From contig CAKWRB010000045.1 of assembly GCA_934845495.1 (NCBI GenBank), positions 1-8,651 on the forward strand: a stretch of DNA of 8,651 bases, in the 5' to 3' direction. This document shows, piece by piece, positions 1 to 8,651 of this stretch (positions are counted from its first letter, which is position 1; every line of letters starts with the position of its first letter). The translations under genes were made by a program, and so were the position numbers. The stretch is from an uncultured bacterium (lineage in GTDB: Bacteria > Bacillota > Clostridia > Oscillospirales > Ruminococcaceae). The notes under the pieces are model-generated. The model saw nothing but the letters and a program-made list of their open reading frames with translations. It ran no database searches and had not been told where the DNA came from.

Positions 1-1
1 G

Positions 2-229
2 GTGCAGACCCTGTATCTGGACAGCACCGATATGGATCAGATCCGCGGCAAGCGTGTCCTCATTGTGGATGATGTTGTCTCCACCGGGGAATCGATGTAT
101 GCTCTGGAAAGCCTCGTAGAAAAGTCCGGCGGTATCATTGCCGGCAAGTGCGCTGTTCTGGCTGAAGGCGATGCCAAAGAGCGCAAGGATGTCACCTTCC
201 TGGGAGAGCTCCCGCTTTTCTTCAAGTAA
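2..229 (+). CDS. Purine (adenine-type) phosphoribosyltransferase, C-terminal part
   Basis: The last 75 codons of a type I phosphoribosyltransferase; the gene begins left of the window, so the GTG at position 2 is probably an internal valine. The stretch VLIVDDVVSTGES is the PRPP-binding loop of this fold (two acidic residues followed by a T-G turn), preceded by a basic GKR and followed by the usual helix and final strand. Enzymes of this type join a purine base to PRPP to give the nucleotide plus pyrophosphate, in the cytoplasm, for purine salvage. The ending (AEGD..ER.D..FLGELPLF) resembles clostridial proteins annotated as adenine phosphoribosyltransferase, but the base-specific part is outside the window, so adenine specificity is inferred. 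The stop lies 34 bases before comEC on the same strand with no terminator between, so the two are probably co-transcribed. Confidence 0.82.
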   Translation: MQTLYLDSTDMDQIRGKRVLIVDDVVSTGESMYALESLVEKSGGIIAGKCAVLAEGDAKERKDVTFLGELPLFFK

Positions 230-263
230 GCTGTGAATCTGTAAACTAAAGGGGAATACCGTT

Positions 264-2303
264 ATGAAACGACCGCTGTTCGATGTAGGAATGTCAGTTC
301 TGATCGCATCAGCGGTCGTTTTGTATGGAAACACATACAGCTATCTGCTGCTTCCGCTCTTACTGGCAGGATCTCTGTTCTGTGCCGTCAAAGCAGCCGA
401 CCGTCGATGGAGAAGGGCTGCGATCTGTATGCTGAGCGGCGCTGCCGCCATCCTGTTCATTCTGGCAGCTGGTCTGCGCCTGGAATCCCGGTTCCGGCCA
501 CTGGATGGTCAGACGGCGGAGGCAGTCGGTGTGGTGACTGAAAAGCGGCATGGTCAGCTGTATGAAGCATACGGCACGGTGCGCACTGCCAACGGCGAAG
601 CCCGAAGGATCAAATTTACACTCTGGAATGCCGTCGCCGATGAGCTGGAAGCCGGGGATTCGTTCCGGTGTACAGTCCGTGTGACCTACAACGATCCCCA
701 TACAAGCGAATACCGTACCTCAGTGGGGGAGAGCCGCTTCCTGTTTTGCTCCACTGGCGAGGAGATCGACCGCCTGGACGAGTCGGTTTCTCCGATACGG
801 GCAGTCATTGCCCGGTTGCGAGCAGAGACGAGCCAGCAGATGATCCGGTGTCTGGGCACCCGGGAGGGCGGGCTGTTCAGCGCCATTACCACCGGTCTCC
901 GACCCGGGTTTGAGGAGCCTGCCCAGCAGATGAAGGAGGCCGGCATTTACCATGTGCTTGCCATTTCCGGGCTGCACATTGCAGTGTTCTGCCACCTGGT
1001 GCTGGGGTTCACCAATCTGCTTCCGCTGCGCCGCCGGATGCGAAACGGATTGGCTCTACTTTGCCTGTGGTATCCGGTTCTTCTCTCCGGGGGCAGTCAT
1101 GCAGTGCTTCGGGCAGCGGTGATGTACTCAGTGTTGTTGTTTGGCCGGATCATAAGCCGTAAAGCGGATGGCCTTAACAGTCTTGGATTAGCTGTTTTGC
1201 TGCTGATTCTGGCGGATCCCTTTGCGGTGCTCTCCTATGGGTTTCTGCTCTCAGTTTTGGCCACGCTGGGGATTCTGCTCTACGAGCGTCCCCTGTCTCA
1301 GCTCCTGGAAAAGCATCTTCCAGTGCGCGGGGGAAAGCTCAGCACCGATCTGATCCATCTGCTCTCCTGCGGTGTTGCCGCCCAGTGTCTGACCCTTCCA
1401 ATCCTGGCAGAACTCGATTCGCGCCTGGTTCTCAATGGTCTGGTATCCGGCCTTGTGATCCTGCCGCTGATGACCCCCATGCTTCTTCTGGGGTATCTGC
1501 TGGCGCTGTTGCTGTGGCTGATGCCGGGAACGGCTGTCTATCTGGCTGGTCCTGCCAGGCTGTTGGGCGGACTGTTCCTGCAGCTCACTGCATGGCTTTC
1601 CCGGCTTCCATTTATTGTTCCGCTGGATACACCGGCCTCCAGAGCAGCGGTCCTGCTTATGACGGCGCTGCTGGTTGGTGCAACGGCACTGCCTGCTGTT
1701 CGCCGCTTTTTCCGCCCGGTCCTGTTGGCAGGGGTATCCCTTTGCTGTCTGCTGGTTGCCTGGGAACAGTGGTGGCTGGCGGGTTCGGTGCAGGTGATTT
1801 CCCGGGGTGAGGATTTCCTGCTGGCGCAGGACAGCCGTGCCGTGCTGCTGTTGGCAGATCGGGAGGGGGCAATGCTGGAAGAACTTCGTAGGAATGGAAT
1901 AAAGCAGCTGGATCTGCTTATCGTGGAAAACGATGCACCACTGCATTCAGAGAGTATGCTCGAATTGCTGGAGGAGTATCCGCCTCTCCAGATCATTGCC
2001 CAGGACAGCGCTGCAGTGACAGGCTATCTGGAGAGCGCCTGTGATGCGCCGGTCCACTGCCGGGAGGAGGTCACAGCCGTGCTGTCTGGGAAGCTTCAGC
2101 TCTGGTATCAGCAGGGGCTGGGCATTGAAGTTTCCGGTGGGGAGATTTTACTCTTAAAGTTTCAGTCTGTTTATGGTATAATGAATCAGTATGAGCCGGA
2201 TGTTCTGATACTGCCCGGACAGGCGGCGCAGATTCGCTCGAATGAGAGTATCCGGGTGCGGGAGAATACCGAGCAGCGCACCGAACTGCTGTTCTGGAAA
2301 TAG
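264..2303 (+). CDS. comEC: ComEC/Rec2-family DNA uptake channel with degenerate C-terminal domain
   Basis: A 679-residue polytopic membrane protein of the ComEC family, which forms the inner-membrane channel for single-stranded DNA in natural transformation. Residues about 10-70 hold N-terminal membrane segments, about 80-165 a soluble OB-like part, and about 200-480 the Competence domain, with the family signatures GIYHVLAISGLHIA (227-240) and GGSHAVLRAAVM (276-287). Residues 508-679 align by pattern with the metallo-beta-lactamase-like domain of other ComEC proteins, but VGQGD has become ISRGED, the THxHxDH metal motif has become VENDAPL (554-560), and the HHGS motif is absent. It is therefore unlikely to bind metal or act as a nuclease. 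It is shorter than Bacillus ComEC, which has about 776 residues. The ATG follows AAAGGGGA by 9 bases. The comEC-holA order is common in Firmicutes. No other competence genes are visible, so transformation itself is not shown. Confidence 0.93.
   Translation: MKRPLFDVGMSVLIASAVVLYGNTYSYLLLPLLLAGSLFCAVKAADRRWRRAAICMLSGAAAILFILAAGLRLESRFRPLDGQTAEAVGVVTEKRHGQLYEAYGTVRTANGEARRIKFTLWNAVADELEAGDSFRCTVRVTYNDPHTSEYRTSVGESRFLFCSTGEEIDRLDESVSPIRAVIARLRAETSQQMIRCLGTREGGLFSAITTGLRPGFEEPAQQMKEAGIYHVLAISGLHIAVFCHLVLGFTNLLPLRRRMRNGLALLCLWYPVLLSGGSHAVLRAAVMYSVLLFGRIISRKADGLNSLGLAVLLLILADPFAVLSYGFLLSVLATLGILLYERPLSQLLEKHLPVRGGKLSTDLIHLLSCGVAAQCLTLPILAELDSRLVLNGLVSGLVILPLMTPMLLLGYLLALLLWLMPGTAVYLAGPARLLGGLFLQLTAWLSRLPFIVPLDTPASRAAVLLMTALLVGATALPAVRRFFRPVLLAGVSLCCLLVAWEQWWLAGSVQVISRGEDFLLAQDSRAVLLLADREGAMLEELRRNGIKQLDLLIVENDAPLHSESMLELLEEYPPLQIIAQDSAAVTGYLESACDAPVHCREEVTAVLSGKLQLWYQQGLGIEVSGGEILLLKFQSVYGIMNQYEPDVLILPGQAAQIRSNESIRVRENTEQRTELLFWK
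2174..2182 (+). promoter_or_regulatory. Possible internal promoter (extended -10) inside comEC, ahead of holA
   Basis: TGGTATAAT is a perfect TGn-TATAAT extended -10 box, lying in a locally AT-rich patch of an otherwise GC-rich gene. At 17 bases upstream the hexamer TTAAAG (2154-2159) is a weak -35. Transcription would start near 2189, about 127 bases before the holA start, and could supply holA, rnmV and the genes beyond independently of comEC. It lies within coding sequence, so chance is a real alternative. Confidence 0.4.
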
Positions 2304-2307
2304 GAGG
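2302..2307 (+). promoter_or_regulatory. Ribosome binding site that fixes the GTG start of holA
   Basis: AGGAGG overlaps the TAG stop of comEC (2301-2303) and sits 8 bases before GTG at 2316. This supports the GTG as the holA start and suggests translation coupled to comEC. Confidence 0.8.
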
Positions 2308-2315
2308 AGCCAACT

Positions 2316-3362
2316 GTGGCACAGATCAACGAAAAAGAACTGAATCGAACCCTGCGCTCCGGCCCGCCATCCGGTGTTTTCCTTCTGTATGGCAGCGACC
2401 ACTATCTGGTGGACCGATATGCAGCGCTGATTGTGGACCGGGCTGTCAAAGGGGACAAGACCTTTAATTATGAGCGAATTGATGGAGCCAAAATTGACTT
2501 CGATCATCTGTACGACAGTGTTCTCACCCTGCCGATGATGGCCGACCGCCGGGCAATCGTTCTGGACGATCCGGACATCGACAAGCTCTCTGCAGGCGAT
2601 CTGGACAAATTGCTCCAAATCCTGGGCGAAGCGGTGGAGCCGACTGTACTGGTGATTGCCATCAAACAAAACGAGTTCCTGCCAAAAAAATCCAACCGCT
2701 GCCGCAAGGTGCTGGAGGCGGTTGACCGCCTGGGCATTGCCGCGGAACTGGGGGAGCGGAGCGCCGCGGATCTGGCAGCGTTTGTAATCAAGCGCTGTGC
2801 AGCGGCAGGCTGCAGCATCTCCAAGGAAAATGCGAATCTGTTGGTGTCCAAGACCACCGGAGAGCTCATCGCAGTGCAGAATGAAGCTGACAAGGTAATT
2901 GCCTTTACAGGTTCTGGCGAGGTTGCAAGGGAGGCGATAGACCGCCTGGTGAGCGCTACGGTGGAGGCAGAAGTGTTCAGTCTCTCCAAGGCGATCCTGA
3001 CACGGGACTATGCCCGGGCCCAGAGCATTCTGGCGGCGCTGATCTACCTCCGGGAGCCGGCTGTGAATATCCTGCATGTGCTGAGCATGGCCTTTGTGGA
3101 CCTCTGCCGTGCCCGTGCAGCGATCTCTGCCGGTGTGGAGACATCGAAGGCTGCGTCGGACTTCGGCTATCGTGGGCGGGAATTTGCCATGCGCAATGCC
3201 TATCGGGATTGCCGGAAGCTGCCGCAGAACTTTCTGCGGCGGGCACTGGAGGTGCTGGCACAGGCCGACTTCACCCTGAAGAGCTCCGGAGCGGATGAAA
3301 AGATCGTTCTGCAAAAGACAATTACCGAGCTGTTTTTGCTGCTCGGGGAGGAGAGGGCATGA
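2316..3362 (+). CDS. holA: DNA polymerase III delta subunit
   Basis: A 348-residue protein matching the delta subunit of the replicative clamp loader, which opens the beta sliding clamp and works with the gamma/tau and delta-prime subunits in the cytoplasm. The N-terminal signature GVFLLYGSDHYLVDRY (about 19-34) followed by the LPMMADRRAIVL strand (about 72-83) is characteristic of HolA; the Walker-type ATP site of true AAA+ motors is absent, as expected for delta. The middle third is the lid-like helical part and the C-terminal third (about 215-348) the helical collar. Length fits the family (about 340). The start is GTG. The 3' end overlaps rnmV in an ATGA arrangement, implying coupled translation. 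Delta is normally essential, so this gene anchors the run as core chromosome. Confidence 0.95.
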   Translation: MAQINEKELNRTLRSGPPSGVFLLYGSDHYLVDRYAALIVDRAVKGDKTFNYERIDGAKIDFDHLYDSVLTLPMMADRRAIVLDDPDIDKLSAGDLDKLLQILGEAVEPTVLVIAIKQNEFLPKKSNRCRKVLEAVDRLGIAAELGERSAADLAAFVIKRCAAAGCSISKENANLLVSKTTGELIAVQNEADKVIAFTGSGEVAREAIDRLVSATVEAEVFSLSKAILTRDYARAQSILAALIYLREPAVNILHVLSMAFVDLCRARAAISAGVETSKAASDFGYRGREFAMRNAYRDCRKLPQNFLRRALEVLAQADFTLKSSGADEKIVLQKTITELFLLLGEERA

Positions 3363-3973
3363 TTCATCTCAAGCAGGCCGTCGTAGTCGAGGGTCGTTAC
3401 GACAAAGCAAAGCTGTCCTCCATTCTCGATGCCGTCATCATCGAGACTGGAGGCTTCCGGATTTTCAAGGATAAGGAGAAGATGGCCATGCTCCGGGAGA
3501 TTGCCCGGCGGCAGGGTCTGGTGATCCTCACTGATTCGGATACTGCTGGCTTCCGGATCCGCCGGTATCTCAGCGGAAGCATTCCAAAGGAGCAGATCAT
3601 CAACGCCTATATCCCGGATATTTTCGGGAAGGAAAAGCGCAAGGATAAGCCGTCAGCCGAGGGAAAGCTGGGGGTGGAGGGAGTGCCCGCCGAAGTGATC
3701 CGCCAGGCGCTGGAACAGGCCGGTGTATTTGCCGAACCAGCGGAGAAGGAAACCCGGCGCATCACCAAGACCGACCTGATGGAGGCCGGCCTTTCCGGTG
3801 GGGCCAACAGTTCCCGGCTTCGGGACCGCCTGAAAAAGCGACTGGGGCTTCCGGAACACCTGGGCCCCAATGCCCTGGTGGGAGTGCTGGGGTGCATCCT
3901 CAGCTACGAAGAATTTTTGGCCCTGGCTGCAGAGATCCGGGCAGAGGACGAGGCCGAAACAGCTGACTGCTGA
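3359..3973 (+). CDS. rnmV: Ribonuclease M5 (5S rRNA maturation, TOPRIM nuclease)
   Basis: A 204-residue TOPRIM-fold nuclease. RNase M5 trims both ends of the 5S rRNA precursor in low-GC Gram-positives, acting on ribosome-associated pre-5S with protein L18. The TOPRIM acidic residues are visible: Glu11 in VVVEGRYDK and the DxD pair Asp59/Asp61 in LTDSDTAG. The stretch KLGVEGVP (103-110) corresponds to the family's KVGVEHA-type motif. Residues about 130-190 form the C-terminal helical part (TKTDLMEAGLSGG, then NALVGVLGC) that is typical of clostridial members and often annotated as DUF4093. The ATG overlaps the holA stop by 4 bases and is preceded by GGAGGAG with 5 bases spacing. In Bacillus rnmV is followed by ksgA; here ksgA is not next, and the MBOAT gene follows instead after 38 bases. 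Confidence 0.93.
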   Translation: MIHLKQAVVVEGRYDKAKLSSILDAVIIETGGFRIFKDKEKMAMLREIARRQGLVILTDSDTAGFRIRRYLSGSIPKEQIINAYIPDIFGKEKRKDKPSAEGKLGVEGVPAEVIRQALEQAGVFAEPAEKETRRITKTDLMEAGLSGGANSSRLRDRLKKRLGLPEHLGPNALVGVLGCILSYEEFLALAAEIRAEDEAETADC

Positions 3974-3995
3974 ATCAACCTATGAAATACAGAAG

Positions 3996-4004
3996 AAAGG
4001 GGAG
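3996..4004 (+). promoter_or_regulatory. Ribosome binding site that decides the MBOAT start
   Basis: AAAGGGGAG lies 7 bases before ATG at 4012. The upstream in-frame ATG at 3982 has no ribosome binding site, and the protein pattern MTFSSISF, typical of MBOAT N-termini, begins at 4012. Confidence 0.75.
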
Positions 4005-4011
4005 CGAGGAA

Positions 4012-5355
4012 ATGACATTCAGCAGCATCAGTTTTATCTATCTGTACCTGCCGCTGGCAATCATTGTGTTCCGGTTCACACCGGCGCACCGGCGGACCCT
4101 CTGCCTGACATTGCTCTCCTGGGGCTATTACCTGCTGGCCTGCGCTCCGGCAGCACTGATCCTGGCGGCAAACTGTCTGCTGGATTTCGTGCTGCTCAGT
4201 TTCCTGGAACTCTACCGCACCCGTTATCCTGAGCGGTCAGCGGGATATCTGGCCTTTGCAGGGAAGGCAGTGGTGGTTCAGGCTCTGGTGATGGTTTACG
4301 TTCACTGGATCCCTGGCGCAGCACTGGGGAGCTTTGTCTATACAGCGACACTGATCGGCTATCTATGGGATCACAGCCGGGGCAAGGCCGGGGATTTCTG
4401 TTCCTTCTGGGATTACGCACTCTTCACCACCTTCTTTGCCAAAAGCTATCTTGGTCCGGTGGTGCGGTATGAGCGCTTTGTGTCCCAGTTCAGCCAACTC
4501 CGGTCCTCGGCAACGCTCATCAGCCGGGGAGCAGTGCAGTTTGTCATCGGCCTGGCCAAAAAAGTGATGATTGCCGATGGCGCTGTGATTCTCTACCACA
4601 AGCTAGCTTCGATCCAGGTGGAGGAGTACACCTTCTTCTCGGCCTGGATGCTGGTGTTTGCAGCAGCGATGGCGATCTTTTTCACTATTTCAGCGTATGG
4701 AGATATGGCGCGCGGGCTGTGCGGCATCTTCTCGCTGGAGGTTCCCCGGGTCGCCTACTATCCGTACCAGGCCAAGAGCGTGGTGGAGTGCGTATCCCGT
4801 ATCAATATGCCGCTCTATGATCTGGTGGTGGAGATTGTCAGTGGTTCAGCAGAGCGGATCCGTCAGCTCCGCCGGTATCGCCATGCCGATACACGGGAAC
4901 TTCTGGCAGTTCTGATCGGGATCATCGTAGTGGGGCTCTGGCTCGATCCCAGCCCCAGAATCCTGCTCTGGGCGGGATTCCTGTTCTTGATGGTGTTGGC
5001 CGAGCGGTACCTGTACTTCTGGCTCTTCCGTTACATTCCCGGTCTGCTGCAGTCGGCGGTGACCTTCGGTCTCTTTCTGTTCAGCCTGACTCCACTGGTG
5101 ATGCCGCAGTTTACCTGTACCGGAAAGCTGATTTCGGCATTGATGGGTTTTTCTGCCCAGCGTATGATCTCGGACGAAACAAGCTACTATCTGGCTTCCA
5201 GCTATCTGGTGATCCTGTTGAGCCTTCTCTTCTTCACCAGTCTTGCCGACCGCCTTTCCGGGTTCCTGTCCCGGAGGTTCCCGGTGGTCTTTGAGTGGGG
5301 AATGGCCATTTTCAATGGATCGCTGCTGATCCTCACTACGGCCCTGCTGCTCTGA
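4012..5355 (+). CDS. MBOAT (AlgI/DltB-like) family membrane protein lacking both signature histidines
   Basis: A 447-residue polytopic protein recognisable along its length as a membrane-bound O-acyltransferase of the AlgI type: MTFSSISF start, SFVYTATLIGYLWDHSRGK (107-125, canonical SFYTFQ...YLIDVYRGE), FFAKSYLGPVVRYERF (141-156), FVIGLAKKVMIAD (177-189), then ISAYGDMA (226-233) and YYPYQAKSVVE (249-259). Family members pass acyl groups across the membrane to extracellular polysaccharide or teichoic acid. The catalytic region is altered: canonical EFWRRWHISLS reads ECVSRINMPLY (His to Asn265), the following RDYLYIPLGG block is unrecognisable, and GLWHG reads GLWLD (His to Leu311, codon CTC at 4942-4944). 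The frame is intact with no stop or shift. Classical acyl transfer is therefore unlikely. It lies 33 bases before its DHHW partner and shares its operon. Whether it binds, conducts or regulates something instead cannot be told from sequence. Confidence 0.85.
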   Translation: MTFSSISFIYLYLPLAIIVFRFTPAHRRTLCLTLLSWGYYLLACAPAALILAANCLLDFVLLSFLELYRTRYPERSAGYLAFAGKAVVVQALVMVYVHWIPGAALGSFVYTATLIGYLWDHSRGKAGDFCSFWDYALFTTFFAKSYLGPVVRYERFVSQFSQLRSSATLISRGAVQFVIGLAKKVMIADGAVILYHKLASIQVEEYTFFSAWMLVFAAAMAIFFTISAYGDMARGLCGIFSLEVPRVAYYPYQAKSVVECVSRINMPLYDLVVEIVSGSAERIRQLRRYRHADTRELLAVLIGIIVVGLWLDPSPRILLWAGFLFLMVLAERYLYFWLFRYIPGLLQSAVTFGLFLFSLTPLVMPQFTCTGKLISALMGFSAQRMISDETSYYLASSYLVILLSLLFFTSLADRLSGFLSRRFPVVFEWGMAIFNGSLLILTTALLL

Positions 5356-5376
5356 TGCAGGGAAAAGTCTGTTTTC

Positions 5377-5384
5377 AGGAGGTG
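5377..5384 (+). promoter_or_regulatory. Strong ribosome binding site of the DHHW-family gene
   Basis: AGGAGGTG, close to a full anti-16S match, ends 4 bases before ATG at 5389 (6 bases counted from the AGGAGG core). A site this good argues that the gene is still translated despite its lost catalytic motifs. Confidence 0.75.
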
Positions 5385-5388
5385 CCCT

Positions 5389-6534
5389 ATGGCGAAACGA
5401 ATTTCTGCAATCTTTTTCCTCACCGTGATTTTTTCAGTCTTTGCTGTGCTGTGTGTGCGGTTTGCCACAGGGGAAGCCAGTAACTTGACCCTGACCCTTC
5501 GGGCGCTGGTAGATGGAAAAATCTCTGCTCAGCTGGAACAGTCTGCCGATGAAAACATGCCTGCCTATCCGCTGCTGCACGAGCTGGCAACGGATGTTCG
5601 CCTGTTTGGGGGCGCAGCAGAAATAGATGGGATTCTGGTGGGAGATACCATGCTGATGAAAAATGTCCAGCCACCGGATGAGGAGATTGCCAGTAAAAAC
5701 AAACAGTCGATCATCGATCTTGCCGTATTCCAGGATCACCCCACCTATGTGATGCTCCTGCCCACCGCCTGTGCCATCAAGCAGCAGGAGCTGCCGGAGT
5801 ACATCAGCCTTTTCAACCAGCGCAGTTACATCGATTCAGTGTATACTGAGATGTCCGGTACGGTTTCGGTGGTGGACACCTATATGAAGCTGCTCTCCGG
5901 TATGAAGGAATACATCTACTACCGTACCTCCGACCACCTCACGGCCAAGGGCGGCTATCTGGTCTATGAGCAGCTTGGCAAGCGGTTGGGTATCTCGCCG
6001 CTGCGTACGCTGGACCAGTTCGATATCGATTACTCGGATGACTACTTCTATGGAAATTTGTACAAACAGCTGCCAGTGGATCGGGTTCAGCCCGACCGGG
6101 TACTGATGTACCGCTTTTCCAAATACCGTCGTGAATATCAGGTGACGCACTACGATCAGGGAGAATCCCGTACCTATTACACCCTGTTCCCGGAGTTCAT
6201 AACAGATCTTCCGGACTACGGGGGAGAGGATGGGTTGATCCTGGGTGGGCTTTCCCCGGTGATCACACTCAAAAGCTCTACCAGCAGCGATAACAGTCTG
6301 GTGATTTTTGCTGATGAAACGGTGCTGAGTTATATCCCGTTCCTGTTGGTACACTATTCGGATATCGCCATTGTGGATGTACGGCGTGCTACACCGGAGG
6401 AGCTGGAAGCGGTGGATCTAGAGGATTACAATCAGGTGTTGGTTGGTGTCTCGGTGGATACATTTATGCATGAGGACATGCACACTGTACTCTCCAACTA
6501 TCTTCCCAAAATCAAGGAGCTGTCCGCAAACTAA
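5389..6534 (+). CDS. DHHW-family (AlgJ/AlgX-like) MBOAT partner with degenerate catalytic motifs
   Basis: A 381-residue protein with one N-terminal membrane anchor (about 6-27) and the rest predicted outside the membrane. It follows the layout of DHHW proteins, the SGNH-like partners of MBOAT transferases: an N-terminal GILVGDTMLM strand (81-90), a middle region ending at IYYRTSDHLTAKGGYLVY (176-193), and a C-terminal block SLVIFADETVLSYIPFLLVHYSDIAIVD (303-330). In active relatives these read YYRTDHHWT and KDSYxNSF.PFL..HY. Here DHHW is SDHL (181-184: Asp to Ser, first His to Asp, Trp to Leu; one His kept) and the serine nucleophile is Glu310. The fold-level match is good but the Ser-His-Asp machinery appears lost. 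Gene order next to the MBOAT supports family membership. It is the last gene before a strong terminator. Assignment rests on motif alignment by eye. Confidence 0.75.
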   Translation: MAKRISAIFFLTVIFSVFAVLCVRFATGEASNLTLTLRALVDGKISAQLEQSADENMPAYPLLHELATDVRLFGGAAEIDGILVGDTMLMKNVQPPDEEIASKNKQSIIDLAVFQDHPTYVMLLPTACAIKQQELPEYISLFNQRSYIDSVYTEMSGTVSVVDTYMKLLSGMKEYIYYRTSDHLTAKGGYLVYEQLGKRLGISPLRTLDQFDIDYSDDYFYGNLYKQLPVDRVQPDRVLMYRFSKYRREYQVTHYDQGESRTYYTLFPEFITDLPDYGGEDGLILGGLSPVITLKSSTSSDNSLVIFADETVLSYIPFLLVHYSDIAIVDVRRATPEELEAVDLEDYNQVLVGVSVDTFMHEDMHTVLSNYLPKIKELSAN

Positions 6535-6563
6535 AAAAGACCGCCTAAAAAGCGGTCTTTTTT
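6533..6563. terminator. Bidirectional intrinsic terminator between convergent genes
   Basis: GACCGC (6539-6544) pairs with GCGGTC (6552-6557) around a 7-base A-rich loop; six A (6533-6538) precede and six T (6558-6563) follow, giving up to 12 bp. Each strand reads a U-tract after the stem. It overlaps the TAA of the DHHW-family gene (6532-6534) and lies 15 bases past the stop of the leftward YoaK-like gene, so it probably ends both transcripts. Confidence 0.92.
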
Positions 6564-6577
6564 CTGCATTTTTGGGA

Positions 6578-7282
6578 TTATCGGAGGGTATCCAGATGCC
6601 GGGCCAGGATCCACAGGCAGGCGCTGAGCGGAAGAACGCAGAGCAGGATGGCATAGTTCCCCCAGTATCCTGTTGCAACACCGCCCAGGGCAGAACTGAG
6701 GATAAAGATAGCAATGATCCCATAGTAGTGGAGCGCCTTGCTGCCCTCGGCTGGCTGGCGGAGGGCAAAGCAGTGGTAAAAGGCTTCGGTGGCGCTGCGC
6801 AGGTTTCCGGTGCACATAGTGGAGGTATAGGAATAGGTTTTCAACCGCCGGAAGGCCTCCATCTGCAGGCCGCAGAGCACTCCGATCAGAACATTGGCAG
6901 CGGTGTTGTATTCACTGGGAACCAGCGCAGTGATGACTGTAAGCAGGATTTCAATCAGCAGGATCGCTTGCTTCCAGTGCAGCAGGTGATGCCGTTCAAA
7001 AAAGGTCTTTACCATTTCGGCAAGATAGACTCCCAGGGCAAAGCAGACAATGGGGATCAAGTATTTGAAAGCACCGGCAAAATCACCGGCAGCCAGGTTC
7101 ATACCCAGTTTGGCCATGTTGCCAGTCTGACCATTGGCAAAGACATGGTCCCGCGCCACATAGGAGTAACTTTCAAAAAAGCCGCCGATTACGGTGAGAA
7201 GGGTGCTGAACAGCAGGGCTTCAGAGGCATCGTTCCGTGGTTTTTCCAGGATGGAGGGGGTGGTTTGTTTGATTTCGTTCAT
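6578..7282 (-). CDS. YoaK/DUF1275-family membrane protein
   Basis: A 234-residue integral membrane protein. The N-terminal signature LTVIGGFFESYSYVARDHVFANGQTGNMAKLG (about 29-60) is the hallmark of the DUF1275/YoaK family (canonical GGFLDAYTYL..GGVFANAQTGN), and a second half-signature, YSYTSTMCTGNLRSATEAFY (about 150-169), fits the family's TGN repeat. About six membrane segments are visible. No biochemical function is established for the family; transport has been suggested because of its membrane topology. It reads opposite to the comEC-DHHW run and converges on the shared terminator. The ATG is preceded at 12 bases by only a weak AGGAAG, so expression may be modest. A dedicated promoter lies upstream at 7346-7354. 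An accessory, single-gene unit. Confidence 0.88.
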   Translation of the reverse strand: MNEIKQTTPSILEKPRNDASEALLFSTLLTVIGGFFESYSYVARDHVFANGQTGNMAKLGMNLAAGDFAGAFKYLIPIVCFALGVYLAEMVKTFFERHHLLHWKQAILLIEILLTVITALVPSEYNTAANVLIGVLCGLQMEAFRRLKTYSYTSTMCTGNLRSATEAFYHCFALRQPAEGSKALHYYGIIAIFILSSALGGVATGYWGNYAILLCVLPLSACLWILARHLDTLR

Positions 7283-7345
7283 ATTTGAGCAGCACTTCCT
7301 ATATCGTTGTATTCCGGCTCAGAGCCTGTCATTTTCTGTGAGGTT

Positions 7346-7354
7346 ATTATAACA
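7346..7354 (-). promoter_or_regulatory. Extended -10 promoter of the YoaK-like gene
   Basis: Read on the minus strand this is TGTTATAAT, a perfect TGn-TATAAT box in the 111-base gap before the gene. At 17 bases spacing the -35 hexamer is GTTCCA, a poor match, which is tolerated with an extended -10. Expected start is near 7339, giving a leader of about 57 bases. No clear terminator for the upstream glycosyltransferase gene was seen in the gap, so read-through from it is also possible. Confidence 0.65.
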
Positions 7355-7393
7355 CAATTCTCCCCAAATGGAACTGCCAAAATTGCCATATTT

Positions 7394-8521
7394 TTACCCG
7401 GGGAATTGGGGGCGGTCCGTGGTACCCGGCAAGAGTGAGCCGGTATCGTGAAAATGCTGCAGCAGACGGACATTTTCCTGCAGGCGCTGATTCTCCGGAT
7501 CCAGCTCTAATGCCTGCAGCGCATACTCCAGCGCAAGCGTATGGCGGCCAAGGTGATACCAGGCGATGGAGATCAAATCCCAGGGCAGACTTCCCCAGGC
7601 CTCTGCTTCACAGATATAGCTCTGGGGGCGCTTTTGGATTCGCAGGGCTCGCTGGGCTGCAAAGAGGACGCCGTGCCAGTCCTCCTGCCGGTACAGCTCC
7701 ATGGCAAGATCGGTCAACGGCTCCCGGAGATAAGGCGCCTCAGCAGCTGCCCGGAGATACCACTGTACCGCGGTGTCCGGTTCGCCTTTATGGCTGTAAG
7801 CGGTGCCGATGTACCGCATAGAGGCGGCCCGCTCATCCGGCCAGTGGGCATTGGGCATGGCAAGGTGTTGCTTCAAAGTATGGATACAGTTGTCCCACTG
7901 CCGGTGGTAGAGGTATTCCCGGCCAAGATAGTGGAGGCAGCGGTCATCTTCCGGGGCTTCACGGACAGCAAGTTCCAGCATCGGCAGATATTGCTCTCTG
8001 GATTTCCGGGTGTCCGGATGGTGCTCCAACCGGATGCCTGGGGCAGATACGATTTTTGGGGTTGTGCTGTCTCCGAGCCAGTGCAGCACCTCGTGAACTG
8101 GATGCACCCACCGATACCCGTGGCGAAGGTGGATCTTCTCCTGCCAGAATGTGACACCATCCCCGCCATTGGGCTGAAAACTCCACACATAGGGGTAACG
8201 TACCTGTGTGGTCCCTGGTTCCCAGACCTGTTCCAGAGCAGAGCGCCATCCGGGGCGGAAGAGTTCGTCTAAATCGGTGCAGACGCACAGGTCGGCATCT
8301 TCATCCACCAGTTCCAGGGAACGGTTCCGGGCTGTATCAAAGCGCCAGGGGGAGATGGTCTCCTCATAAACAAGCGCACCGCGTCGGCGGAGCAGTGCTG
8401 GGGTTTTGTCCGTGGAACCGGTATCCAGCACCACAACCTGATCTGCTTCCTGCATGGAATCCATCCAGCGATTTACAAATTGGCTTTCATTTTTACAGAT
8501 GGCATATACAACGATTTTCAT
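7394..8521 (-). CDS. Family 2 glycosyltransferase with C-terminal TPR-like repeats
   Basis: A 375-residue cytoplasmic protein without membrane segments. Residues 1-185 are a GT-A fold family 2 glycosyltransferase: MKIVVYAICKNES (1-13), VVVLDTGSTDKT (29-40) for nucleotide-sugar binding, the FDTARNRSLE helix (61-70), the DxD metal motif Asp83-Leu-Asp85 in CTDLDELFRPGW, and the HGYRWVHPVHEVLHW acceptor-side segment (134-148). Residues about 195-345 are paired helices of TPR type (YLGREYLYHRQWDNCI, YIGTAYSHKGEPDTAVQWY, WYHLGRHTLALEYALQALELDP). This GT2-TPR layout occurs in glycosyltransferases of clostridia, phages and the SunS peptide-glycosyltransferase type; the TPR part often holds a protein acceptor. 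Donor and acceptor are unknown. The start at 8521 is chosen over an in-frame ATG at 8572 because of AGGAGG 7 bases before it and because the GT fold begins there. It lies 82 bases beyond another gene end and its terminator, with no obvious promoter of its own. Confidence 0.88.
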   Translation of the reverse strand: MKIVVYAICKNESQFVNRWMDSMQEADQVVVLDTGSTDKTPALLRRRGALVYEETISPWRFDTARNRSLELVDEDADLCVCTDLDELFRPGWRSALEQVWEPGTTQVRYPYVWSFQPNGGDGVTFWQEKIHLRHGYRWVHPVHEVLHWLGDSTTPKIVSAPGIRLEHHPDTRKSREQYLPMLELAVREAPEDDRCLHYLGREYLYHRQWDNCIHTLKQHLAMPNAHWPDERAASMRYIGTAYSHKGEPDTAVQWYLRAAAEAPYLREPLTDLAMELYRQEDWHGVLFAAQRALRIQKRPQSYICEAEAWGSLPWDLISIAWYHLGRHTLALEYALQALELDPENQRLQENVRLLQHFHDTGSLLPGTTDRPQFPG

Positions 8522-8528
8522 CGGTGGA

Positions 8529-8534
8529 CCTCCT
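8529..8534 (-). promoter_or_regulatory. Ribosome binding site that decides the glycosyltransferase start
   Basis: On the minus strand AGGAGG sits 7 bases before ATG at 8521. The alternative in-frame ATG (8570-8572) falls inside the terminator hairpin and would add 17 residues unlike the family. Confidence 0.85.
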
Positions 8535-8553
8535 GGAAGTCTTTGTTGTATCG

Positions 8554-8587
8554 AAAAATGACGGGCAGCCACAGGGACTGCCCGTCA
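8554..8587 (-). terminator. Intrinsic terminator of the gene at the right edge
   Basis: Read leftward, a 10-bp stem TGACGGGCAG / CTGCCCGTCA with a 9-base loop is followed by five T. It starts 17 bases after the stop of the partial gene at the window edge. There is no matching T-tract on the plus strand, so it works leftward only. It lies between that gene and the glycosyltransferase, whose expression would then depend on read-through or an unseen promoter. Confidence 0.85.
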
Positions 8588-8603
8588 AATCACGGAGGAT
8601 AAA

Positions 8604-8651
8604 TCAGTTGAGCTTCTGAATCACCATGCTGGTATATGCTGCAGTGGTATT
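8604..8651 (-). CDS. C-terminal 15 codons of an unidentified gene
   Basis: An open frame entering from the right edge and ending in TGA at 8604-8606, with tail NTTAAYTSMVIQKLN. Fifteen codons alone prove little; the support is the leftward terminator placed immediately after the stop. The sequence is too short to identify. A pattern of small residues ending in an amphipathic helix would fit a surface or filament protein as well as many others, so no function is proposed. Confidence 0.5.
   Translation of the reverse strand, partial: NTTAAYTSMVIQKLN

Follow-up and report, generated by a model that had tools for sequence, protein, structure and literature searches.

The window analyzed here is an 8,651-nucleotide stretch from an uncultured bacterium of the family Ruminococcaceae (GenBank assembly GCA_934845495.1, contig CAKWRB010000045.1, positions 1 to 8,651 of the forward strand). 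It contains a pair of adjacent genes (4012 to 6534), coding for a membrane protein with an MBOAT fold and a partner of the DHHW/SGNH type, which stand last in a run with comEC-like, holA, and rnmV-like genes (Table 1). An earlier, sequence-only reading of this stretch had proposed that the two products are matched pseudoenzymes, and its description of the locus is borne out. Both frames are open, AGGAGGTG (at 5377-5384) and GGGGAGCGAGGA (directly 5' of 4012) precede the starts as ribosome binding sites, the DHHW-like gene starts 33 bases 3' of the MBOAT-like gene in one frame with it, and the shared terminator is present as a hairpin followed by a T run. Among six terminator-like sites found in 3300-6700 (3.2 are expected in shuffled sequence), this hairpin has the longest stem. 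An alternative in-frame ATG at 3982 would yield an MBOAT-like protein of 457 amino acids. A search for a promoter-like site between rnmV and the MBOAT gene found none, and an Rfam search gave no match.

Table 1. Features of the window; canonical and degenerate refer to the classes of gene pairs defined in the text
Feature	Positions	Strand	Remarks
comEC-like gene (PF03772, E 4.7e-44)	264..2303	+	first full gene in the window's run; upstream of the pair in relatives too
holA (DNA polymerase III delta)	2316..3362	+	TIGR01128 216.7 bits, above cut-off; synteny in relatives
rnmV-like gene (ribonuclease M5-like, Toprim + DUF4093)	3359..3973	+	PF13331 69.6 bits; synteny in relatives
Degenerate MBOAT-fold membrane protein, 447 amino acids, without C-terminal shuttle tail	4012..5355	+	
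Asn265 codon at WRRWH His position	4804..4806	+	98/98 canonical H; 73 degenerate: N 66, H 4, Q 2, L 1
Leu311 codon at GxWH catalytic His position	4942..4944	+	98/98 canonical H
MBOAT stop codon just past last predicted helix	5353..5355	+	canonical relatives continue 12 residues, ending in shuttle motif
Degenerate DHHW/SGNH-fold partner, 381 amino acids, N-terminal helix 2-26	5389..6534	+	
SDHL at the DHHW position, residues 181-184	5929..5940	+	triad Asp to Ser; His position kept (His183); Trp to Leu
Glu310 at Ser nucleophile position	6316..6318	+	
Terminator-like hairpin (intrinsic), 12 pairs, T run, 3' of pair	6533..6563	+	

The MBOAT-like protein gave no match to PF03062 at E values up to 0.1, although some of its degenerate relatives do match. 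Because a PDB sequence search with it found nothing, its placement uses the predicted fold, which is that of an MBOAT; the models of both proteins are confident (pLDDT, the predicted local distance difference test, 92). The partner matches the DHHW family, PF14286, at 62.1 bits (cut-off 25), yet SDHL and Glu310 stand where members of that family carry the motif and the triad serine. Likewise, Leu311 occupies the place of the invariant GxWH histidine of catalytic MBOAT acyltransferases. The adjacent SGNH partner gene of the relay systems is present, in the same order as in relatives, and the C-terminal hexapeptide is absent. We would class it as an MBOAT-SGNH pair of a relay-dead kind, outside the O-acyltransferases.

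In the relay as outlined in passages of one study, the MBOAT histidine acylates a tyrosine in the protein's own C-terminal hexapeptide, after which the SGNH serine receives the group; auto-acetylation of PatA requires both the histidine and the C-terminal tyrosine (PMC12148441). We equate the GxWH histidine with the catalytic one from the alignment and from Trp335/His336 and Trp288/His289 of DltB, as named in excerpts of PMC11035591. Judged from these alignments, the pair in the window is without key residues at all three stations of the relay.

The comparison set was built from a scan of GTDB genomes, searches with profiles in the order and the family of Merdimmobilis hominis (394 and 396 genomes, respectively), and 77 fetched regions. 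The GTDB scan gave 30 loci, 23 of which (L001-L015, L017, L019-L024, and L026) have a degenerate pair behind an rnmV-like gene, with holA also present in 22 of these. Altogether, 212 adjacent pairs were reduced to 171 once near-identical duplicates were dropped. A DHHW protein was called canonical if Asp and His were present and Ser was either present or cut off (8 rows). The 73 degenerate pairs are that of the window and those of 72 loci; the 73 genomes counted below are those of the 72 loci plus G025, in which a DHHW gene lies at a contig end without an MBOAT and which is excluded from the 171 pairs. The fetched regions were drawn from the higher-scoring matches of a degenerate-DHHW profile, and canonical pairs are therefore under-sampled; family matches below about 280 bits were read in part. 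The degenerate form occurs in at least 69 of the 396 family genomes and at least 5 of the 394 order genomes. A scan of viral contigs gave one locus, with a canonical MBOAT. The same losses are seen in those homologues from a metagenomic protein catalogue that extend to the sites, except P0092, in which the serine of the DHHW protein is kept. One entry, P0016, whose start is near-identical to the degenerate family and whose remainder is a canonical MBOAT, was excluded because it is probably a chimera of the assembly, though it may be a recombinant.

The 171 pairs fall into 73 with both partners degenerate and 98 with both canonical, and none is mixed. Thus, the co-occurrence of substitutions in the two partners, put forward as a check in the sequence-only reading, is observed throughout. 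Canonical pairs retain both MBOAT histidines and the triad Asp and His in 98/98 cases, and the serine in all 90 rows that reach its column (8 are truncated); the fetched canonical relatives carry it in a DS motif. In the degenerate class, the GxWH column is occupied by Phe (48), Tyr (13), Leu (6), Ile (4), Ala (1), or Arg (1), and by His in none of the 73. Their DHHW proteins have lost all three triad residues in 43 cases, two in 28, and one in 2; the Ser column holds nine different residues, with Ser itself in 4. The loss of catalytic residues in both partners, seen in the window as Asn265 and Leu311 and as SDHL and Glu310, is therefore shared by all 73 degenerate pairs. A third loss, absent from that reading, is that of the C-terminal tail carrying the shuttle tyrosine. 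Past the last aligned residue of the window's MBOAT, 12 residues follow in 98/98 canonical proteins, mostly ending in YNPFLYFRF, and 0-4 in 72 of the 73 degenerate ones. The sole degenerate MBOAT with a 12-residue tail, L208, has Cys at the tyrosine position. The strict motif F.Y..F ends the MBOAT in 98/98 canonical and 0/73 degenerate pairs (a looser pattern matched 2 of the latter). Because canonical pairs keep the catalytic positions while the 73 degenerate pairs share their loss, the shared loss is not a matter of chance. We infer that the acyl relay of the pair is inactive.

Both classes occur at the same genomic address. Eighty-eight of the 171 pairs lie behind rnmV, 68 of them degenerate (window included) and 20 canonical; in the remaining 83, no rnmV is seen in the piece (5 degenerate, 78 canonical), linkage being judged only where the upstream DNA sufficed, and many canonical pieces being short. 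Where rnmV and the pair occur together, the median gaps are 22 bases between rnmV and the pair and 19 between its two genes. The constant linkage to rnmV anticipated in the sequence-only reading thus holds for 68 of the 73 degenerate pairs but not for L016, L018, and L226, which lack rnmV despite at least 6 kb of upstream DNA; the other two without it have 1.6 kb (L157) and about 300 bases (L170). In L016, the pair follows tsaD-like and comF-like frames, as named by eye. Since a canonical pair, of the type nearest to the degenerate one, occupies the same locus in 20 relatives, the dead pair likely derived from an enzyme in place, and this canonical ancestor would have been an O-acyltransferase acting on a surface polymer.

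Several loci vary in layout. Long gaps or extra open reading frames (about 550-1020 bases) separate rnmV from the MBOAT gene in L158, L166, L167, and L171, and the MBOAT from the DHHW gene in L155; the insert of L167 codes, by eye, for a lipoprotein-like product. L221 (G006) has two tandem canonical MBOAT genes (5554-6969 and 8657-10072), equal in profile score, with one DHHW gene. L028, L029, and L030, from metagenome-assembled Ruminococcus genomes, encode DHHW-like proteins in which part of the triad is lost, and no MBOAT was found adjacent to them; a PF03062 search of the genomes of L029 and L030 found no MBOAT anywhere.

Despite the loss of relay residues, the pair bears the marks of selection. 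Between the window and L001, the ratio of nonsynonymous to synonymous substitution rates (dN/dS) is 0.091 for the MBOAT and 0.074 for the DHHW gene, beside 0.089 for holA, 0.065 for rnmV, and 0.212 for comEC. Over nine chosen degenerate comparisons, the values for the pair are 0.05-0.20, similar to those of the neighbors, and rough because dS exceeds 1 in several. The family sample contains 69 degenerate DHHW matches, none of them with an internal stop, and the MBOAT frame is open in 73/73 degenerate pairs, at 432-519 amino acids. In each partner, 22 positions are conserved in both classes (73 degenerate versus 49 canonical rows). These observations support the view that selection maintains the two genes together as a relay-dead unit.

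How often the loss occurred is less clear-cut than the coupling. In MBOAT and DHHW trees computed without the motif columns, all 73 degenerate rows fall on one side of a single branch (support 99 and 98). On the other hand, trees of neighboring genes reject a single clade for the 23 degenerate rows tested (approximately unbiased [AU] test, p 0.005), placing L208 among canonical rows and the canonical L186 among degenerate ones, and the pair's own data do not reject a grouping of L208 with canonical pairs (AU p 0.19). L208 (G400; 1725-3113 and 589-1707) is itself a peculiar locus, a degenerate pair in which the surroundings of the MBOAT motif look canonical and the tail Tyr is changed to Cys. 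It may represent a second, independent loss, in which Tyr was replaced by Cys instead of the tail being truncated, or else an intermediate at the base; for L186, a transfer or the misplacement of a long branch may be the cause. As few as one or two losses may underlie the whole degenerate class, and hence the coupling is strict but the events behind it are few.

As the relay residues are lost at three stations, yet the frames are open and the operon is mostly conserved, a different, noncatalytic job is likely. Our leading candidate, put forward tentatively, is that the pair acts as a scaffold or sensor that holds a cell-surface polymer without acylating it. The two proteins would still form a membrane complex, with the outer domain keeping the ancestral polymer groove and binding polymer and the MBOAT part serving as its anchor; where sibling catalytic pairs exist, the dead pair might tune or compete with them. 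By analogy with the PatA/PatB model, the MBOAT C-terminus should be outside the membrane; we expect the partner's N-terminus inside, so that a fused model of the two, joined by 11 residues, would be distorted. A more elaborate version, which we regard as doubtful, is that the whole trans-membrane acyl relay was converted in place, as a unit, into a receptor made of a pseudo-MBOAT and a pseudo-SGNH protein, which would bind the formerly acylated polymer and report or gate it across the membrane, as a device widespread in one family of gut-associated Clostridia.

Several observations weigh against the scaffold or sensor reading. The window's partner retains not only His183 but also Arg332. The column of the latter, which we equate with the family's DxRY motif and thereby with the oxyanion Arg359 of BcPatB1 described in a passage of PMC9487903, has Arg in 88/88 canonical rows that reach it versus 4/73 degenerate ones (window included); its loss in most of the degenerate class speaks for the reading. 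In a mirror-tree test of MBOAT and DHHW distances over 64 loci, the two partners show no correlation beyond that expected from shared ancestry (partial r 0.053, a value reached in 223 of 1000 permutations). Sixty-three MBOAT positions conserved in canonical rows are no longer so in degenerate ones (73 versus 49 rows), a pattern equally compatible with relaxed constraint and with a new role, and one that also fits a scaffold with a disused funnel. Asn265 and Phe/Tyr311, being conserved, could take part in a different reaction. Finally, broken copies of either gene occur in the catalogue: P0010 (31 member sequences), P0012 (17), P0011 (2), and P0014 (1) for the MBOAT, beside 236 in the intact entry P0002, and P0078 (39), P0079 (1), and P0080 (1) for the DHHW partner, beside 234 in the intact P0068.

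The alternative that survives best is that the dead pair regulates its siblings, joining canonical MBOAT-SGNH pairs of its own cell, or competing with them, and tuning their acylation in the manner reported for the mammalian protein HHATL in hedgehog acylation; we consider this possible but rather unlikely. The genomic company speaks for it. Another PF14286 locus occurs in 70 of the 73 genomes with a degenerate copy versus 9 of the 20 with a canonical pair at the locus (Fisher p 7e-7), and two or more occur in 56 versus none (p 1.5e-10); the loci were counted by hand with split matches merged, kinship is uncorrected in both tests, and the other PF14286 loci were read only in part. HHATL offers a precedent, the same His-to-Leu change being found in a protein described as a negative regulator (PMC5831804, in part), and the tetramers of DltB reported in a portion of PMC11035591 make mixed oligomers conceivable. 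Against this, as few as one or two events in the tree may account for the association, and three genomes (G004, G601, and G542) have no PF14286 locus besides that of the dead pair. A PF03062 search gave no match in G004 and, in both G601 and G542, none besides the degenerate MBOAT, in assemblies of unstated completeness; as G601 and G542 hold sister loci (L167 and L173), chance gaps in both assemblies are unlikely. With no other PF14286 or PF03062 match in these three genomes, the dead pair needs a job of its own there. In most genomes, then, the dead pair has siblings for company, but it can also endure without them. The second pair that the sequence-only reading expected in the same genomes is matched, as another DHHW-family locus, in 70 of 73 but not in these three, which also tell against its idea of a regulator where that role is taken as obligatory.

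It is less probable, and in our view quite unlikely, that the pair catalyzes another membrane reaction through new residues (Asn265 and Phe/Tyr311 in the MBOAT; Asp309 and its neighbors in the partner). Asn265 is found in 66 of the 73 degenerate proteins, an aromatic residue at 311 in 61, and Asp309, which adjoins the lost serine, in 73/73, and the low dN/dS values also count in its favor. However, with nine residues in the old serine column, no single new nucleophile has taken over. The DxRY arginine is mostly gone, and the positions newly conserved in the degenerate class alone amount to L32 in the MBOAT and N104, Q132, and G157 in the partner.

Slow decay, with the pair carried as dead weight by essential operon neighbors, appears improbable. 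The 63 relaxed MBOAT positions are as it would predict, the genes upstream (comEC, holA, and rnmV) might protect the locus, and the broken catalogue copies fit as well. Those listed above are all closest to L001, and a further entry, P0013 (13 member sequences), is closest to another branch, of whose protein it lacks the part before residue 201. P0012 shifts frame more than once, and P0014 diverges beyond residue 184, where the window DNA has six consecutive A (4558-4563); because the break falls at this run, slippage, error, or a null allele are all possible. On sequence evidence, the broken copies could be either sequencing errors or null alleles, which are indistinguishable here. The sequence-only reading, which named frameshifts or stops in related pairs as grounds for refutation, is upheld on this point by the 69 DHHW matches free of internal stops but qualified to a small extent by the broken copies in the species closest to L001. 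The neighbor-like dN/dS, the open MBOAT frames, the confident predicted folds, and the excess of intact over broken catalogue copies all run counter to decay. Moreover, the pair is last in its operon and could be deleted, and in L016, L018, and L226 it persists apart from rnmV.

That a separate small protein supplies the shuttle tyrosine to a pair that is still an acyltransferase, as DltX supplies the C-terminal motif in the Dlt system according to a passage of PMC12148441, is hardly credible: no open reading frame in the window ends in the shuttle motif, small-frame matches in 9 of the 73 degenerate loci are scattered and chance-like, and the MBOAT histidine and SGNH serine are lost too.

Among known systems, the pair most resembles the PatA/PatB type (PatAB; PatA1/PatB1 of Bacillus cereus; AlgI with AlgJ/AlgX), with which it shares adjacent MBOAT and SGNH genes, both folds, and the DHHW Pfam family, and canonical members of which occupy the window's locus in relatives; it differs from them in lacking the MBOAT histidine, the tail with the shuttle tyrosine, and the SGNH Ser and Asp. 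It is unlike DltB/DltD/DltX in having no equivalent of His336 and no DltX-like frame found in the window, and in a partner that matches DHHW rather than DltD. The DHHW-family protein EUBSIR_00411 of Eubacterium siraeum (4nzk) differs in that, by alignment, it has the DHHW motif and the KDS serine, both absent from the window protein. To our knowledge, HHATL is a single eukaryotic protein without an SGNH partner. The window's MBOAT, with Leu311 and a confidently predicted fold, shows the same combination of a replaced histidine and a retained fold as HHATL (GUP1), in which the catalytic histidine is likewise changed to leucine and for which a negative effect on the hedgehog pathway is reported in excerpts of PMC5831804. 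Pseudo-MBOATs are already known in animals. In the titles, abstract openings, and passages covered by our literature search, most subscription papers and preprints lying outside its scope, neither a bacterial pseudo-MBOAT nor a pair with MBOAT, shuttle tail, and SGNH partner all dead together is reported. Since canonical and dead pairs share a locus in related species, a membrane acylation complex with its chemistry can be compared directly with one without it, and the locus offers a way into the question of the polymer and the phenotype that such a complex serves.

The surroundings of the pair yielded some further observations. The rnmV-like protein scores 85.3 bits against TIGR00334, below the cut-off of 110.65. 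The comEC-like protein (264-2303) diverges faster than its operon neighbors (dN/dS 0.21 versus 0.07-0.09, window versus L001). Beyond the pair, a minus-strand gene at 7397-8524 encodes a glycosyltransferase-2 domain fused to TPR repeats and adjoins a gene for a DUF1275 membrane protein (6581-7282); among the loci of the GTDB scan, these two genes recur only in L001 and L002.

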